DNA of 64,000 nucleotides, from the NCBI RefSeq assembly GCF_021266465.1, contig NZ_CP089848.1, positions 1,240,001 to 1,304,000 of the forward strand, given 5' to 3'. Source of the DNA: Paralcaligenes sp. KSB-10 (GTDB lineage: Bacteria; Pseudomonadota; Gammaproteobacteria; Burkholderiales; Burkholderiaceae_B). A program made the position numbers and the translations under genes. Positions 2,167-56,427 of the stretch are shown piece after piece (positions within the stretch are counted from its first letter, which is position 1; each line of letters opens with the position of its first letter). Below the pieces are notes generated by a model that worked only from the letters and a program-made list of their open reading frames with translations, was not told the origin of the DNA and searched no databases.

Positions 2167-2387
2167 GCCGCAGGGTGGGCGGTGCTGTGCAGTCCGGCAC
2201 GTCCAGCGGTCGTGGTGCTACGCACCCCGACTGCCCGGGTCTGCCTCGTCCAGGCGGGCGTCGGGCCAACTCGCCTGGCCTCGCGAGGCCAGGCTCAAAC
2301 AGGGCCCGCCGACAGCCCCCGCCTTCCCTTCGTCAGCACCCGGCGCTGGACTACCGCCGGACTGCACAGCACCACCCACCCTGCGGC
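2167..2387. repeat. Palindrome A of composite copy 1
   Basis: Outer arms of 32 bases (2167-2198 and 2356-2387) pair with one mismatch. Inside, GTCCAGCG pairs with CGCTGGAC. At the centre GCCTGGCCTCG pairs perfectly with CGAGGCCAGGC and is bracketed, on the minus strand, by TGTTTGAGC and GCGAGTT. Confidence 0.85.
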
Positions 2388-2684: not shown

Positions 2685-2887
2685 GCCGTCTATCGGGGCT
2701 TGGGGTCAGGACCGGCGTAAGGCGTGCGCCGGATGCTACCGTAGGGAAGGCGGGGGTAGTCGTCGGGCGTGTTTGAGCGGAGCCCCGCACCGCGGGGCGT
2801 AGCGAGTTCGCCCGACGCCCGCCTGGACGAGGTAGATCCGGATCAAGCACGCCGTGCCGGTCCTGACCCCAAGCCCCGATAGACGGC
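2685..2887. repeat. Palindrome B of composite copy 1
   Basis: Arms of 32 bases (2685-2716 and 2856-2887) are perfect reverse complements. The inner part shares the core of palindrome A in opposite orientation: GTGTTTGAGC, a hairpin with CCCCGC pairing GCGGGG, then GCGAGTT, flanked by CGTCGGGC-type and GCCCGACG-type arms. Confidence 0.85.
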
Positions 2888-11396: not shown

Positions 11397-11621
11397 GCCG
11401 CAGGGTGGGCGGTGCTGTGTAGTCCGGCACGTCCAGCGGTCGTGGTGCTACGCACCCCGACTGCCCGGGTCTGCCTCGTCCAGGCGGGCGTCGGGCCAAC
11501 TCGCAGTGCCTCGCCCGCGAGGCACTGCTCAAACAGGGCCCGCCGAAAGCCCCCGCCTTCCCTTCGTCAGCACCCGGCGCTGGACTACCGCCGGACTACA
11601 CAGCACCGCCTACCCTGCGGC
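11397..11621. repeat. Palindrome A of composite copy 2
   Basis: 32-base arms (11397-11428 and 11590-11621) pair with one mismatch. Relative to copy 1 the left arm has GTGTAG for GTGCAG and the right arm has the matching CTACAC for CTGCAC, a compensated change. The central hairpin is GCAGTGCCTCGC pairing GCGAGGCACTGC, a sequence different from copy 1 but fully paired. Confidence 0.87.
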
Positions 11622-11690: not shown

Positions 11691-11889
11691 GCCGTCTATC
11701 GGGGCTTGGGGTCAGGGCCGGCGTAAGGCGTGCGCCGGATGCTACCGTAGGGAAGGCGGGGGCTTTCGGCGGGCGCTGTCTGAGCCCAGCCTCGCGAGGC
11801 TGGGCGAGTTCGCCCGACGCCCGCCTGGACGAGGTAGATCCGGATCAAGCACGCCGTGCCGGCCCTGACCCCAAGCCCCGATAGACGGC
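11691..11889. repeat. Palindrome B of composite copy 2
   Basis: 32-base arms (11691-11722 and 11858-11889) are perfect reverse complements. Where copy 1 has CAGGACCGG and CCGGTCCTG, this copy has CAGGGCCGG and CCGGCCCTG: both arms changed together. Centre: CTGTCTGAGC, hairpin CCAGCCTCGCGAGGCTGG, GCGAGTT. Confidence 0.87.
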
Positions 11890-12203: not shown

Positions 12204-14003
12204 TTATCGCCCGGCGGCATAGGCTTGAAGCAGCCGTGGCGAAGCAGCGGCGTGCATCAGGCCATCTTCGTCACGCGACACTGCGGTCAATCGCCCGATA
12301 CTCCATTCCGGCGACTCTTCAATCTGATGCCCGCGCCGCTGCAAGTCGTCGATCACCTCGCGGCCATAGCTGCTTTCGATTGTAATATTTCCGGGCTTGC
12401 GACCGCGTGGATAAAAGGAACTGGGAAAATGCTGTGTGTGAAACATGGGCATATCGATGGCTTCCTGCAAATTGAAGCCTTGCTGAATATGCCGTAAAAA
12501 CAGGATCAATTGCCATTGCTCCTGTTGATCGCCTCCGGGTGTGCCGAAAGCCATGTAAGGCACCCCGTCTTTTGACAGGAACGTGGGGCTCAGCGTGGTT
12601 CTCGGCCGCTTATAAGGAGCCAGCGTACCGGGCAGACCTTCTTCGAGCCAAAACATTTGGGCCCGGGTATTCAGGCCAAAGCCCAAGCCCGGTATCACCG
12701 GCGACGATTGCAGCCAGCCGCCCGATGGCGTGGCCGCAATCATATTGCCCCAGCGGTCAATGACGTCAATGTGCGTGGTATCGCCCTTCTTGGCCGACAC
12801 GAGCCGGTTTGCCTTATCCATGGCGGAAAGAGGCGTGTCATCCGCCGTTTGGGGCGACAGGCGGTTCAGGACAGCCATGACGCGCGCGACTTGCGCCTCG
12901 TAGCCCGGGATTATGCCTGGGCTCAATTCATTGAATGCCCGGTCGCCAATAAGGCAGCTGCGCACCCGGTTATAGTCGTCGGACAAAAGCACGGACAGCG
13001 GAACATCGATGAAATCGGGATCGCCGTAATAGGCTTCACGATCGGCGAAAGCCAGCTTCATGGCTTCAACCAGCAGGTGCACGAAACGCGGGTCGCCCGG
13101 CTTCAGGCTTGAAATATCGGTGTGCTTGAGCAAGGCCAGCACTTGCAGGAATGTCGGGCCCTGGCTCCACGGCCCCGTTTTGGCGACATTTATATTTCCA
13201 TATTGGTACTGCAGCGGCGCTTCGTAACTGGCCGACCAGCGGGCCATATCGTCGCCCCTTATGACTCCTTTATGCGGCGCCCCGCTTTCGTCCATCACTT
13301 CCGTATGGGACGCGAACCGATCGATTGCCTCGGCCACAAAGCCCTTGTAAAACACTTGCCTGGCCATTTCGATTTGCTTTTCGCGATTGCCTCCGACGCT
13401 TTCCGCCTCGGTCAGCAAGCGGCGCCAGGTATTGGCCAGCGCCGGATTGCAAAAAAGCTTCTTTCCCTTGGGAACGGCACCTTGAGGCAAGTAGACTTCG
13501 GCCGAAGTCGGCCAATATGCCTCAAAAAAATCCTTCATGCTCGCAATGGTGTTGGACACGCGCGGCAGCAGCGGATGGCCTGTCTGGGCGTAATAAATGG
13601 CCGGCTCCAGCACATCGCGCAGCGACTTCGTGCCGTGGTCGCGCAACAGGATCATCCATGCGTCGAAAGCGCCGGGCACCACCGCAGCAAGCAGCCCGTT
13701 GCCGGGGATAAGCGTTAAACCTTCAGCCCGATAGCGGTCCAGCGTGGCGGCGCCCGGCGTAGTGCCCTGCCCACACAGCACTTCGATTTTTTTTGTGGCT
13801 GCCGAATAGAAAATGCCCGGCACTTCACCGGCCGGCCCCACCAGATTGGGCTCGACCACATGCAACACGAACGCGCTGGCCACGCACGCATCGAAGGCAT
13901 TGCCGCCGCGCTCCAGCATCGACATGCCTACCGCTGTGGCAAGCCAGTGAGTCGAGGTGACAACACCGAAAGTGCCGGTGATTTCCGGACGAGTCGTAAA
14001 CAT
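12204..14003 (-). CDS. Gamma-glutamyltransferase family protein (first of two)
   Basis: 599 residues of the Ntn-hydrolase GGT family, which self-cleaves at a Thr that becomes the nucleophile and hydrolyses or transfers gamma-glutamyl groups. The cleavage site is GDTTH at 407-411 with Thr409 likely catalytic; the later glycine pair is in FGTPGGDQQ (about 486-494). It departs from the classic family: the N-terminal segment usually GIGGGGF is GPAGEVPGIF here, and the GSG-type loop is SGGWLQSS. There is no signal peptide, so it should act in the cytosol on imported substrate. It starts 51 bases after the binding-protein gene. The exact substrate may not be glutathione. Confidence 0.88.
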   Translation of the reverse strand: MFTTRPEITGTFGVVTSTHWLATAVGMSMLERGGNAFDACVASAFVLHVVEPNLVGPAGEVPGIFYSAATKKIEVLCGQGTTPGAATLDRYRAEGLTLIPGNGLLAAVVPGAFDAWMILLRDHGTKSLRDVLEPAIYYAQTGHPLLPRVSNTIASMKDFFEAYWPTSAEVYLPQGAVPKGKKLFCNPALANTWRRLLTEAESVGGNREKQIEMARQVFYKGFVAEAIDRFASHTEVMDESGAPHKGVIRGDDMARWSASYEAPLQYQYGNINVAKTGPWSQGPTFLQVLALLKHTDISSLKPGDPRFVHLLVEAMKLAFADREAYYGDPDFIDVPLSVLLSDDYNRVRSCLIGDRAFNELSPGIIPGYEAQVARVMAVLNRLSPQTADDTPLSAMDKANRLVSAKKGDTTHIDVIDRWGNMIAATPSGGWLQSSPVIPGLGFGLNTRAQMFWLEEGLPGTLAPYKRPRTTLSPTFLSKDGVPYMAFGTPGGDQQEQWQLILFLRHIQQGFNLQEAIDMPMFHTQHFPSSFYPRGRKPGNITIESSYGREVIDDLQRRGHQIEESPEWSIGRLTAVSRDEDGLMHAAASPRLLQAYAAGR

Positions 14004-14054: not shown

Positions 14055-15560
14055 CTACTGCTTGGCCAGTTCCACCCCTTTCAGGCGAATCAGGCCGTCG
14101 GGATAGGGAACAAACCCCTTTACCCGTTTCTGCACGGCAAAGGTCCAGGGTAGATAGTAGGTGTAGAAAATGGGCCGTTCAACCTGCATCCGCTGAAGGA
14201 ATTCCGCATAAAGCGCCTTGCGTTTGCCGGTATCCTGCTCCACTCGCGCATCGACCAGCAGCTTGTTGAGTTTTTCGTCGCAGAACTTGCCATCGTTGAG
14301 GCTGCCCTTGCAACTGACATATTGAAACACGTTGCCGCTGGGATCGACGCGGCCCGACCAACCGGCTTGCCCAAGCTGAAAATCGCCGCGCGCCAAAGTG
14401 GATTGCAAGGCGGCAAACTCCATGGGCCTGAGGCTGATGTCGAATCCGGCTTCGCGCCCCGTCGCCTGTATCAGTTCCATGACCTGCTGCATAATAGTAT
14501 TGGTGCCATACGAGATTTCAACCTTGACCCGATCAAACCCTGCCTCCTTCAACAAGGCACGCGCCTTTTTTACATCGCGGCCTTTACGCTCGACGCTCTT
14601 GTCGTAAGCAAAACTGGCGGGAGGGAAAGGCTGGAAAGCGGGCTGGTACAGGCCCATCCCCACGACCTGATTTATGGCGTCCCTGTCGATGGCTAGATCA
14701 AAAGCCTGCCTGACCCGCGCATCTTTCGCAAAGGGGTTGCTGGCCCCTCGAGGGCCATTGGCAAAATTGACCGAAATGGCCTGGAAGCCCAGGCCGGTAA
14801 TCGGCATGAATACGAGGCTGGGATCGTTCTTGACTGTTTCGGCGTCGCTCGGGGCAATGCGCTCGGCCATATTCAGCCCGCCGGCGCGCAGGTCGTTGAG
14901 CCGCACCGTTGCATCGGGAACGGGCTTGAAGATGACCGTATCGATATGAAAATCCTTGGCATCCCAGTATTGCGGAAATTTTTCCAGCACGATGCGGTCG
15001 TTCTGGACGCGCTCCTTGAAACGATAAGGGCCGGAGCATACGGGATTTTTTCCTGGATCTTTATCGAAGCTTTTCGGCGACTGCATCATGCCCGCACGAT
15101 CGGACAACTGCGACAGGAACGATGCGTCTGGCTCGGACAAATGGAGCACGACTGTCCTGGAATCCGGCGCGTCGACGCTGACCAGCGTTGCCAGCTCGCT
15201 TTTGCGATTGCTGTCGGGCAATGTCTTGGCGCGATCGAGGTTGGCCTTGACCGATGCGGCATCGATAGGAGTGCCGTCGTGATAGACGGCTTTATCGCGT
15301 AAAGTGAATTTAAGTGTTTTATTGTCGAGCCACGTCCATAAGGTGGCCAATTGGGGAACGATTTTCAGGTCGGGAGTAATTTCAACAAGCTTGTCGCACA
15401 GCGACGCAAATACGATACGACCCACGAATGTCCTGGCTCGCACCGGATCAAGCTGGTCCGGATCGTCCTGCAAGCCTATTTTCAGGGTAGTCTGGGCAAA
15501 CGCCGCGCTCGATAAAAGCACGCCCGCTATCGCCGCGATTTTCAGGATTACCTTGTTCAT
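14055..15560 (-). CDS. Periplasmic peptide-binding protein of an ABC transporter (SBP family 5, GsiB/DppA type), first copy
   Basis: 501 residues with an N-terminal signal peptide (MNKVILKIAAIAGVLLSSAAFA, cut after AFA) and the family 5 pattern LKIGLQDDPDQLDPVRART near the mature N terminus. Binds peptides in the periplasm for the permease encoded just upstream. ATG 15560 is chosen over TTG 15566 because GGAG lies seven bases before it. It is closely similar in layout to the protein at 19653-21170 (shared LRIGMQEDPDTLDP-like start, LCDKLV, and the end GFVPYPDGLIRLKGV), so the two are paralogues serving one transporter. Confidence 0.93.
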   Translation of the reverse strand: MNKVILKIAAIAGVLLSSAAFAQTTLKIGLQDDPDQLDPVRARTFVGRIVFASLCDKLVEITPDLKIVPQLATLWTWLDNKTLKFTLRDKAVYHDGTPIDAASVKANLDRAKTLPDSNRKSELATLVSVDAPDSRTVVLHLSEPDASFLSQLSDRAGMMQSPKSFDKDPGKNPVCSGPYRFKERVQNDRIVLEKFPQYWDAKDFHIDTVIFKPVPDATVRLNDLRAGGLNMAERIAPSDAETVKNDPSLVFMPITGLGFQAISVNFANGPRGASNPFAKDARVRQAFDLAIDRDAINQVVGMGLYQPAFQPFPPASFAYDKSVERKGRDVKKARALLKEAGFDRVKVEISYGTNTIMQQVMELIQATGREAGFDISLRPMEFAALQSTLARGDFQLGQAGWSGRVDPSGNVFQYVSCKGSLNDGKFCDEKLNKLLVDARVEQDTGKRKALYAEFLQRMQVERPIFYTYYLPWTFAVQKRVKGFVPYPDGLIRLKGVELAKQ

Positions 15561-15619
15561 GATCAAGCTCCAATGGAAATGAGTTGTTTCGTTGGCGGAT
15601 TAGATTCTTGGAACATCAA

Positions 15620-15849
15620 GCGGTGCCGGTGGGCCAGGCTGGGCAGGCGAGCTCGAACCCGCCACGCCAAGGACCCGGGGCGGGGAATCAAGGGAGCAAC
15701 TGTCTGAGCGTGACGCTTGCGCACAGCCCGGGGGGCTGTGCGCCACGCGAGTTTTGCGACCGCCCCGAGCCAGGTCCTTGGCGTGGGCAGCCCTGGCACA
15801 GCCAGGGCCGGGTGAGGCGAGCCTGCCCAGCCTGGCCCACCGGCACCGC
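15620..15849. repeat. Palindrome C inside the peptide-transport operon
   Basis: Perfect 29-base outer arms (15620-15648 and 15821-15849), a second inner pair around CCACGCCAAGGACC and GGTCCTTGGCGTGG, and a central hairpin GCGCACAGCC / GGCTGTGCGC. The outer arms share nothing with palindromes A and B, but the centre has CTGTCTGAGC before the hairpin and GCGAGTT after it, the same boxes. It fills most of the 319-base gap between the ATPase stop and the binding-protein start, and could stabilise or separate the two transcript parts. Confidence 0.85.
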
Positions 15850-15879
15850 TGGCGCGGGCATCGGCAATACCGTCCGGCA

Positions 15880-17736
15880 TCAATAGACCCCTACAGAATG
15901 GCGCGCCACAAAATGACCCTTGCCGACCTCCACCAGAGGCTCGACCAGCGGATCATCGCCCACACTGCGCACGGCGCTGGGAATTTCATCCACCAGTAGC
16001 GAGTGCTCCCGGTGCCGCCGCGAAGGGTCGGCAATCGGCACGGCAGCCATGAGCTTTCTGGTGTAAGGATGTTGCGGACTCTCGAAAATGGCGCTGCGCG
16101 GGCCGATTTCAACCACCTGCCCCAGATACATCACCACCACTCTATGGCTGACGCGCTCCACCACGGCCATATCGTGGGAAATGAACAGGATGGACAGGCC
16201 CAGCTCACGCTGCAGGTCCAGCAACAGATTGACGATCTGCGCCTGTATGGATACATCCAGGGCGGACACCGATTCATCGGCAATAATGATTTTCGGGTTC
16301 AAGGCCAGGGCCCGCGCGATGCAAATGCGCTGCCTTTGCCCGCCTGAGAATTCATGGGGATAGCGGTCTATCATTTCAGGACTCAGGCCGCACTTGTCCA
16401 TCAGCCAGCGCACCCGTTCGTACGCTTTGCGCCCTTTGGCCACGCCGTGGATCAGCAACGGCTCCATAATTGAATAACCGATGGTCACGCGCGGATCGAG
16501 CGATGCAAAGGGGTCCTGGAACACGAACTGGATGTTCTTGCGCAAGGCCTGCATCTGGCCCGCACTCAAAAGGCTTATATCCTGCCCCGCGAAAAGAATT
16601 TTCCCGGCACGCAGCCGCTCCAGCTGGGCCAGGGAGCGTCCGGTGGTGGTTTTGCCGCAGCCCGACTCACCCACCAGGGCCAGCGTTTCGCCCGGATATA
16701 AATCGAAACTGACCTGCTCCACGGCATGCACCCGCCGACGCACGCGGCCAAACAGGCCGCTGGCAATATCGAACCGCGTTACCAGCTTATCGACTTGCAG
16801 GAGCGGCCCTTGCTCATATTTAACCGTGGATGACAGCGGCAGCGGCTCTTCATGAGCGGACGCGGCGTCGGCACCCAGCAAAGCAAAGGGCGTGGGCTGG
16901 CCTATGCCTTTCATGGAGCCCAGTTTCGGCACCGCGGACAACAAGGCTTTGGTGTACCAGTGCTGAGGCTGATTGAATAAAGCATCGGATGAGTTTTCTT
17001 CCACCTTTTCACCACGATGCATCACCATGACCCGGTCCGCCACTTCGGCCACGACCCCCATGTCATGCGTGATGAAAATCACGCCCATATCCATGTCCTG
17101 CTGCAATTGGCGTATAAGCTGCAGGATCTGGGCCTGGATGGTGACATCCAGGGCGGTGGTGGGCTCGTCGGCAATCAGCACCTGCGGCCGGCACGACAGC
17201 GCCATGGCGATCATGATGCGCTGTCGCATGCCGCCCGACAATTGGTGAGGATAGCGGCCTTGTATCGCACGGGCATCGGGAATGCGCACGGTTTCCAGCA
17301 GGCGCAGCGTTTCCGCCTGGGCCGCGGCCGCATCCATGCCTTGATGCAGGCGCAGCGCCTCGGCAATCTGATTGCCGGTGGTAAAGCTCGGGTTCAGGGA
17401 CGTCATGGGTTCCTGAAAAATCATGGCGATGTCGGCGCCGCGTATCGTCCTCATGGCGGGCTCGCTTGCGGCCACCAGATCGAGCACGTCGCCGCTGCGG
17501 CGGCGCAACAGGATTTCGCCGTGTGTAATGCGGCCCTTGCCAAACTCGACCAGGCGCATCACCGACAAGGACGTTACCGACTTGCCGGAACCCGACTCCC
17601 CCACAATCGCCAGTGTCTCGCCCTTTTCCACGTAAAAGGACACATTGCGCACCGCCTGGACCAGGCGATCAGGGGTTTTAAAGGAAACGCTCAAGTCTTC
17701 AACCTGAACGACACGCTCTGCATTCATCATCGGCAT
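15880..17736 (-). CDS. Dual ATP-binding subunit of a peptide ABC transporter (GsiA-like)
   Basis: 618 residues with two complete ABC ATPase halves, like a fused DppD-DppF or GsiA. First half: Walker A GESGSGKS (about 50-57), signature LSGGMRQR, Walker B VLIADEPT. Second half: Walker A GESGCGKT (about 355-362), signature FSGGQRQR, Walker [13 protein letters not shown]. Energises import through the two permeases encoded directly upstream (gap of 3 bases). The glutathione importer GsiA has this fused form, which fits the neighbouring gamma-glutamyltransferases. Start at ATG 17736 is used; ATG 17727 is possible. Confidence 0.93.
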
Positions 17737-35111: not shown

Positions 35112-35317
35112 GCCGTCTATCGGGGCTTGGGGTCAGGACCGGCACGGCGTGCTTCATCCGGATTTAGCTCGGCAAGGCGGGCGTCGGTCGAACTCACTGC
35201 GCCTCGCACACTGCGCGAGGCTCCGTTCAGACAACGCCCGACGACTTCCCCCGCCTTGCCGAGCTAAATCCGGCGCACGCCTTACGCCGGCCCTGACCCC
35301 AAGCCCCGATAGACGGC
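35112..35317. repeat. Palindrome B of composite copy 3
   Basis: 32-base arms (35112-35143 and 35286-35317) pair with one A-C mismatch: the left arm is of the copy 1 type (CAGGACC), the right of the copy 2 type (GGCCCTG). The centre, on the minus strand, has TTGTCTGAAC, a hairpin around GCCTCGC and GCGAGGC, then GTGAGTT, the most divergent core in the window. Confidence 0.83.
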
Positions 35318-35451: not shown

Positions 35452-35672
35452 GCCGCAGGGTGGGCGGTGCTGTGTAGTCCGGCGGTAGTCCAGCGCCGGG
35501 TGCTGACGAAGGGAAGGCGGGGGCTTTCGGCGGGCGCTGTCTGAGCCCGGCCTCGCGAGGCCGGGCGAGTTCGCCCGACGCCCGCCTGGACGAGGCAGAC
35601 CCGGGTAGTCGGCTAGCGTAGCTAGCCGACCGCTGGACGTGCCGGACTGCACAGCACCGCCCACCCTGCGGC
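35452..35672. repeat. Palindrome A of composite copy 3
   Basis: 32-base arms (35452-35483 and 35641-35672) pair with one T-G mismatch. Centre: CTGTCTGAGC, hairpin CCCGGCCTCGCGAGGCCGGG, GCGAGTT. Compared with palindrome B of copy 2 the hairpin has one swapped base pair (CCCAGCC to CCCGGCC, with GGCTGGG to GGCCGGG). Confidence 0.86.
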
Positions 35673-55054: not shown

Positions 55055-56427
55055 AACGCTCCATCACCGTGCGGCTGGTGGCCATGTTCGCGCTTGCCAC
55101 GCTGGCCACGTTTCTGCTGATCGGCGCCGCCCTCTATGGCGTACTGCAGCGCGAACTGGCCCGGCATCAGCACGACGAACTGCAAACGGCTTACCAGGAC
55201 ATGGAATACATGATCAAGCGTGCCGGAACCCCCAAGCGCTGGTCGCATGTCGTCACCAAAATGGATACCCTGACCCTGGCCAACGGCAGCAAACGCTTCT
55301 GGGCAAACAGCCCGGACCCGCGCTATCGGTACGGCCGGGATCTGTCCGAAATTCAGGCCGTCCCCCACTCGGCCAATGGCATGGGCATGCTCGAACTGCC
55401 CGAACGCGCCTACCCCCTGTACACCCTGACCAAAACCATCGCCGCCTACCAGGACCGGCCGGCCGTCGAACTTACCATAGGCATAGATGCCATGCCTTAT
55501 GTGCACACCCTGCATACCTTCCTGATCGCGCTGATGGCGCTGTCGCTGACCGCCGTGCTGCTGGTCATGGTCCTGGGCTACTGGATTGCCCAGGTGGGTT
55601 TGCGCCCCCTCAAGCTATTGTCGAAAGAAGCGCAAACCCTGAGTCCCAGAACGCTGTCGCAGCGCTTGCGGATCTCGCCGCTTCCCGCGGAACTGTCCGA
55701 TCTCGCCACAGCCTTCAATGGCGCGCTGGGCCGGCTCGAGGCGGCCTACAACCAGCTCGAGGCCTTCAATGCCGATGTGGCTCACGAACTGCGCACGCCG
55801 CTGACCAACCTGATCGGCGAAACCCAGGTTGCCCTGTCGCGCCAGCGTACGGCTCCGCAGTTCCAGGAAGTACTGCAATCGAACCTCGAAGAGGTGGAAC
55901 GCCTGCGCTCCATCGTCAACGACATGCTGTTTCTGGCACGCGCCGATCAGGGCGAAGCCGCCACAGGCCTGGTGCAGACGCCCATTGTGCAGGAAATAGG
56001 CAAAACCATTGAGTTTCTGGAGTTCGTCCTGGACGAGACGCAGGAAACCGTCAAAATCGACGGCGACACCGCTGCCGAGGCAAAAATCGAAACCGCCCTG
56101 TTTCGCCGCGCCATGACCAACCTGTTGCAAAATGCAATTGAACATTCCCGTTCCGGCGCGCAGATCCTGGTCAATCTTCACCAGGAATCCTCGCTCATCC
56201 GGATTGCGGTCTCCAATCCGGGCGAACCCATCGCTCACAATCACCTGCCCTTGCTGTTCGACCGGTTTTACCGGGTCGACGCCGCGCGCCATAACGGCCA
56301 AACGCATGGCCATGGCCTAGGCCTGGCCATTGTCAAGGCGATTGCCACCATGCATGGGGGCGAAGTCTTCGCCAGCAGCGCAAACGGCATGAACACAATC
56401 GGCTTCAGTGTGCCGGCGGCGGGCTGA
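55051..56427 (+). CDS. Sensor histidine kinase of the CusS/IrlS type
   Basis: 458 residues: two membrane helices (about 8-30 and 152-178) around a periplasmic sensor of about 120 residues, HAMP (about 178-230), dimerisation domain with His245 in [10 protein letters not shown], then ATPase boxes [18 protein letters not shown] and [13 protein letters not shown]. The G1 box DXGxG is replaced by SNPGEP, a common form in this branch. Translationally coupled to the regulator (ATGA overlap). The periplasmic domain shows no clear Cys/His metal cluster, so the signal may be a drug or envelope stress rather than copper. Confidence 0.93.

Follow-up and report, generated by a model that had tools for sequence, protein, structure and literature searches.

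We conclude, with a probability of about two in three, that the nested palindrome between two transporter genes of Paralcaligenes sp. KSB-10, here called element C, is one member of a family of REPIN-like, non-autonomous mobile repeats that act through a folded single strand. This reading is based on sequence, structure, covariation, strand asymmetry, copies, pairing, context and absence in two relatives. The repeat family, with elements of about 230 letters, is apparently undescribed; no published description of the element was found in the openly licensed PMC literature. The features of the window, which is the whole stretch of 64,000 nucleotides that was analysed, are collected in Table 1.

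The first-pass annotation had reported a nested palindrome at 15620–15849 with perfect outer arms of 29 bases. The palindrome is present and spans 15619–15850, its perfect arms being 30 nt long, one base longer on each side; the imperfect arm measures 45 nt (84%). The reported position between a GsiA-like gene and genes for a binding protein and a transferase, all on the minus strand, was confirmed by the neighbouring genes. Folded as plus-strand RNA, C reached −187.5 kcal/mol (z=−13.9), and 0 of 200 shuffled sequences were equally stable; z was −13.8 for the minus strand as RNA and −13.7 for the plus strand as DNA (0/200 shuffles as stable). The strand of C with the conserved fold is antisense to the transporter operon. 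Neither promoter-like nor terminator-like sites were found at 15400–16100, where the terminator scan covered both strands, and the pattern of an intrinsic terminator (a GC-rich hairpin followed by a T-run) had 0 sites on either strand of this interval.

Table 1. Element C, its gene neighbours and the paired A/B units, in window coordinates
Feature	Position	Strand	Remarks
Element C, whole nested palindrome	15619–15850	+	+ is the strand with the conserved fold
5' outer arm of C	15619–15648	+	perfect partner of 15821–15850; arms covary among copies
3' outer arm of C	15821–15850	+	partner of 15619–15648
Inner stem of C, 5' strand	15662–15685	+	partner 15763–15786 (88%)
Inner stem of C, 3' strand	15763–15786	+	partner 15662–15685
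Terminal hairpin of the long arm of C	15719–15743	+	perfect 11-nt stem, 15719–15729/15733–15743
Second hairpin of C, GCCCTGGC-ACA-GCCAGGGC	15790–15808	+	15790–15797/15801–15808, from sequence and fold
Conserved core of C	15653–15810	+	covariance model R1, 142.2 bits
Internal-loop motif of C, 5' side (CAAGGGAGCAACTGTCTGAGC)	15689–15709	+	invariant alignment columns
Internal-loop motif of C, 3' side (GCGAGTTTTGCGACCGCCCC)	15747–15766	+	invariant alignment columns
GsiA-like ABC ATPase gene, upstream in the operon	15880–17736	-	best NCBIfam model GsiA, under its cut-off
SBP_bac_5 (family-5 solute-binding) protein gene, downstream in the operon	14055–15566	-	
gamma-Glutamyltranspeptidase gene	12204–14003	-	
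Y unit of inverted pair	2167–2387	-	
X unit of inverted pair	2685–2887	+	
Y unit of inverted pair	11397–11621	-	
X unit of inverted pair	11691–11889	+	
X unit of inverted pair	35112–35317	-	
Y unit of inverted pair	35452–35672	+	

A unit of the family comprises about 200–230 nt, with an outer stem, a long inner arm and a second short hairpin. The consensus fold of 14 copies from the KSB-10 genome had 89 pairs, 45 of them with changes on both sides. We also aligned 38 diverse cores from this and other genomes, C included; the distant L088, one false regex match in L092 and the cut L155 were left out. In this alignment, 36 of 40 consensus pairs had double changes. Among 1505 cells, 93.4% were paired, compared with 62.3% after shuffling and 34–42% after sliding; the fold was derived from the scored rows, which favours the paired-cell figure but does not explain the double-change count. 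Across genera, the sequence of the arms varies freely and their pairing is kept. Invariant positions lie mostly in or beside internal loops (AAG, TG and GAGC of CTGTYTGAGC, GCGAG, and CGC), and the long arm has a fixed internal-loop motif, CAAGG..GC..CTGTTTGAGC on one side and GCGAGTT..GCG.CCGCC on the other. Here, tandem G-A opposite an asymmetric loop presumably resembles a kink-turn.

The two strands are not equivalent. Among pairs common to the folds of both strands, 60 cells were G-T and 12 were A-C; 24 of the 38 sequences had more G-T, four had more A-C and ten were tied. When pairs of either fold were counted, the numbers were 67 and 28. Since no bias of this kind would be expected from a double-stranded cruciform, we conclude that one strand, the plus strand, folds in function. 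As to whether it acts as DNA or RNA, we lean to DNA. The element is also directional: most other copies carry, beyond the outer stem, a CTYAAGAAC-like tag on the 3' side. A sequence with at most one mismatch to TTAAGAA occurred in 35 of 62 elements of relatives, compared with 9% of shuffles, and the reverse motif was present on the 5' side in five of the 62. In the A/B type described below, A/C-rich tails follow the tag. Copy C of the window has neither the 3' tag nor CGTC beside its stem; because it is without the tag, it may be an old or decayed copy.

With C as query, the KSB-10 genome (4.45 Mb, one contig) yielded at least 33 other loci at E ≤5×10−11 among the best 40 of 54 matches. A second search, which started from a main-type copy, added loci (best 40 of 80), and both searches combined gave about 41 C-type loci. 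Main-type full-length copies make up 29 of the 41, namely 27 with at least 92% and two with 86% identity to the query. The 27 are 92–99.6% identical in pairwise comparison, and two of them (L005 and L011) lie in a duplicated stretch with identical flanks. Four full-length copies are divergent (C, L002, L003 and L032), C having about 74% identity to the main type. Two of the remaining copies are interrupted by an IS, four have internal deletions and two consist of the 3' part only. The distal hairpin has been lost in four C-type copies; this speaks against each copy having a necessary function but not against mobility. A search for more copies with the arm of C had been proposed earlier. The exact 30-nt arm did not recur among the best 40 of 54 matches, and what the genome does hold is elements with different arms. 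All C-type elements of this genome are single units, and queries with C and with a main-type copy found no plasmid copies.

Several features were seen beside individual copies. Main-type copies often have an A-run (a T-run on the opposite strand) beside the 5' arm. Arrays of GCATGCAAAAAACGCAGGCCTGC-like units of about 26–28 bp lie directly 5' of the element at L014, L019, L020, L024 and L025, and some C-type copies have short TTAAGAAC repeats on the 3' side. At L049 and L057 of genome G035, several very short fragments of the 3' end are closely spaced behind a full copy. The elements L032 of KSB-10 and L045 of genome G016 both stand just after what is apparently one gene, DsbC-like by eye; an old site shared by the two genera is possible.

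It had also been suggested that C is a second subfamily with the core of the A/B palindromes of the window but with other arms. This was borne out by R1, the covariance model built from the 38 cores. It found C with 142 bits, C itself being among the 38 sequences that built the model, and A/B units with 56, 27, 26, 24, 24 and 18 bits. The 56-bit match lies at 35134–35282 on the minus strand; the five other A/B matches are weak (18–27 bits) and all lie inside A/B palindromes, and a further match at 56167–56240 is at chance level. Since C and A/B are found by one covariance model, we regard C as a separate subfamily of a shared superfamily. The A/B palindromes are three inverted pairs of the subfamilies X (arm beginning GCCGTCTATC) and Y (arm beginning GCCGCAGGG) with their 5' ends facing each other. 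The pair is matched at no fewer than 40 loci of the genome (best 40 of 115 matches), at least 25 of which cover the full pair or nearly so, with Y on the minus and X on the plus strand. All three pairs of the window are divergent, with the 3' tags pointing outward. In relatives, this was true of the orientation of 16 of 17 neighbouring pairs (98 loci searched, two duplicate records removed), the exception being L107. At L047, 1.1 kb separate the two units; the ORF between them (nitroreductase-like by reading) was considered as part of a composite element and rejected, the distance being taken as chance spacing.

Of the genomes searched with R1, 22 of 37 from the family and 4 of 24 others from the order had matches at E ≤10−4, with up to at least 48 per genome. 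In the class, 18 of 369 genomes had matches, this one included, and in the phylum sample the count at E 10−5 was 7 of 398, all of the same class. These multi-genome counts are lower bounds, because the filters lose weak matches, and the E-values are rough. Among the 80 stretches listed by one pattern scan, the named carriers included Pusillimonas, Parapusillimonas, Pollutimonas, Pigmentiphaga and Paralcaligenes. Rfam 15 gave 0 matches at the gathering score in the window. In 35 element-bearing loci searched with lax thresholds, no Rfam model, HEARO included, matched the element above its cut-off. The most recurrent sub-threshold match, the guanidine-III riboswitch, was rejected (20.8–23.3 bits against a cut-off of 36).

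We then compared the operon junction with those of relatives. The nearest homologues of the binding protein are found in genomes G033 (85%) and G018 (81%), and both adjoin the same ATPase gene. From the ATPase stop to the binding-protein start, the distance is 21 bp in G018 (16 bp when measured only to the GGAGA ahead of the ATG), 207 bp in G033 and 319 bp in KSB-10. R1 had no match in the loci of G018 and G033 or in 11 other homologue loci, so that C was the sole match among 14 sources. Because two syntenic relatives are without the element, C probably entered a transporter operon that had been compact before, and gain in this lineage rather than loss in G018 and G033 is the simplest reading. 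The junction without the element differs from that of C by more than the element itself, and no target-site duplication was visible when the flanks were inspected by eye. In G033 the junction (L237) holds another REP-like array, of the GTAGCGGCACCCCTTGTGGGTGCC type, and for this reason the junction seems to collect repeats.

Gene context was determined with a simple codon-usage gene caller made for this analysis. C-type copies stand between convergent genes at 14 of 26 classifiable sites (29 examined) and A/B-type copies at 17 of 22 (25 examined); in the window, the orientation is convergent in 4 of 36 pairs of adjacent genes. Co-directional genes surround 10 of the 26 C-type copies, C counted, and C is one of eight copies flanked by two genes running against the element. 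A replication-strand bias was considered as well: the folded strand coincided with the C-rich one at 22 of 29 loci, and at 30 of 41 by rough arcs. We rejected it as proof, as gene direction is a confounder and sampling for the arcs was sparse.

In the proposed mechanism, a trans-acting enzyme recognising the folded plus strand would spread the element. This strand would more likely be single-stranded DNA during replication than an RNA intermediate. Copies would persist at the least harmful places, between convergent genes. C would then be a late insertion into its operon, and any effect on the mRNA would be a by-product.

Candidate mobilisers were sought in the genome. The Y1/RAYT transposase domain PF01797 had 0 matches in KSB-10, so that mobilisation by a RAYT was discarded, and also 0 in several element-rich relatives (G001, G018, G025, G028, G033 and G035). 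The sole reverse transcriptase found in the KSB-10 genome belongs to a retron of type II-A (L195, 4143500–4146500): the gene (305 aa) adjoins an NDT-type effector gene, and PADLOC reported RT_II-A and NDT_II-A. In view of this type and partner, and as no link to the element was seen, it was discarded as mobiliser. Retroposition with 5' truncation, suggested by the look of L030, L033, L034 and L053, was discarded too, since L030 is interrupted by an IS and four further copies have internal deletions. The IS in L030, which recurs at the identical spot in another copy (L193), has rve and HTH_Tnp_1 frames and, by the reading of its two frames, is IS3-like. One and the same IS sits at the same position of the CTGTTTG motif in different copies at L194 (3545800–3548200) and L193 (2443500–2446500), as if it targeted the element. 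At L033 and L034 of this genome and L053 of genome G002, only the 3' half is present, with the tag intact.

Could the plus strand act as RNA? The copies might be functional non-coding RNAs, multiplied by duplication or by a reverse-transcribed route, with a loop motif that is catalytic or serves as a protein-binding site. This would agree with the strong covariation alongside fixed unpaired motifs, with the predominance of G-U-like wobble on one strand (60 versus 12), with the directional 3' tag and with the 3'-part copies L033, L034 and L053, as reverse transcription would yield. However, no promoter-like site was found at C, what had been taken for a 5' truncation in L030 is an inserted IS, other odd copies have internal deletions, the sole reverse transcriptase found is that of a retron, and G-T wobble is tolerated in single-stranded DNA too. 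We consider such functional RNAs rather unlikely. It is still somewhat less likely that the family is a new class of mobile structured RNA, in which a plus-strand RNA of 200–230 nt would be a SINE-like intermediate or a guide or cofactor of the mobiliser; this reading takes in the conserved internal-loop motif, the 3' tag and the spread over Beta- and Gammaproteobacteria as singles and inverted pairs.

Stem-loops between genes can alter mRNA decay, and the first-pass annotation had noted that such structures often set different mRNA levels for the parts of transport operons. On this reading, C would be an mRNA control structure of the operon, reducing or protecting the message of its binding-protein part. 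C does lie between the ATPase and binding-protein genes and has a very stable fold in the mRNA strand. Yet G018 and G033 lack it at the corresponding junction, about 40 other loci carry the element, copies stand mostly between convergent genes, no terminator-like site was found and the strand with the conserved fold runs antisense to the operon. Operon tuning is thus very unlikely and does not explain the element; an effect of C on the mRNA would at most be incidental. Scarcely more can be said for bidirectional terminators or insulators kept to separate convergent genes, which we judge highly improbable. Two observations would fit them, the convergent genes around 17 of the 22 A/B-type and 14 of the 26 C-type copies and the A-run beside the 5' arm of many main-type copies, but C stands between co-directional genes like 10 of 26 C-type copies (C counted) and has no terminator pattern, simple terminators need no conserved internal-loop motif, and REPs are placed likewise (PMC3733652, in the part available). 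There is next to no chance that the element provides an IscB/TnpB-like (OMEGA) system, now in trans, with its guide-RNA scaffold. Dispersed stand-alone structured units would agree with such a scaffold, as would short motifs of the element, which we take to resemble IscB omegaRNA. But the IscB domain PF14239 has 0 matches in this genome and occurs in 5 of 61 genomes of relatives; no element lies beside the gene at six IscB loci compared by blastn (four of the same family, two of G054); and the lax Rfam search of 35 loci, HEARO included, found no match to the element. We rejected the scaffold on the 0 PF14239 matches and the six loci. Matches to PF14239 (IscB-type) number about 20 or more in each of the genomes G004 and G054.

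The preferred reading, a REPIN-like mobile repeat, does not make the element a REPIN. Going by the accessible parts of PMC3116915 and PMC3733652, it is like REP/REPIN (BIME) in its extragenic location, many copies and inverted doublets, in its placement after genes and between convergent genes, and in its folded single strand. However, REPs are about 20–60 bp long. REP units are simple palindromes, whereas the present units have 200–230 nt, two hairpins and a fixed internal-loop sequence. A REPIN consists of two inverted units, as do the A/B types but not the single C type, and the RAYT tyrosine transposase of REPINs had no match in this genome. We do not file the element as a REPIN because two defining REP features, size and RAYT, fail.

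Other known repeats were compared in the same way. CGTC behind the stem is shared by CGTC-tagged REPs and by the C-main, X and Y copies (GCGTCTTAAGAAC/GCGTCTTTAAATAC). Such REPs are described, in the excerpt of PMC3733652, as likewise lacking a dedicated transposase. Their stems have 8–9 bp and their loops 4–5 nt. The present structure is far larger, and its cross-genus tag is nearer CTYAAGAAC, CGTC not being constant. The BRE (bprJ of Bordetella) is a betaproteobacterial intergenic repeat with many copies, partly transcribed; compared by its description in the available part of PMC3110155, it differs from the element in having about 90 bp and standing in tandem arrays. The MRSC-65-2 motif, in the portion of PMC11109978 at hand, is alike in its long covarying stem and dozens of copies per genome, and is thought to be selfish, in RNA or DNA form; judged by this description, it has one long stem that carries a UYCCGG repeat and not the present loop motif. 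MITEs are also small, non-coding and dispersed, with palindromic ends. Those of DDE type have conserved terminal inverted repeats, whereas here the arms differ by subfamily and genus and change together; the arms of C were not found elsewhere in the genome among the best 40 of 54 matches, and arms covary.

If the REPIN-like reading is right, REP/REPIN biology would gain dispersed repeats of large size and intricate fold that have no RAYT. With RAYT absent, another mobiliser would act in many Alcaligenaceae and, more distantly, in other Gammaproteobacteria, and the R1 covariance model and the conserved motif offer a handle for finding it. Palindromes like C, which was apparently inserted, should not be read as operon control signals.

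More distant repeats were seen outside these genera. Methylophilus appeared with such a repeat in the same pattern-scan listing. At contig ends of Methylophilus methylotrophus (L088, L125, L127 and L135), the core motif lies within a long repeat; L127 has a second, reversed core alongside, with GGTTACTTTC-type hairpins outward. These repeats suggest a second superfamily architecture outside Alcaligenaceae. Nine distant relatives from other families of the class (L199, L204, L205, L207, L209, L210, L212, L213 and L220) have in common a GAGCATCGCAG-like stretch, CTGTTTGAG and GCGAGTT, and most of them have a GGTACTTTTCTTTG-type hairpin 3' of it.
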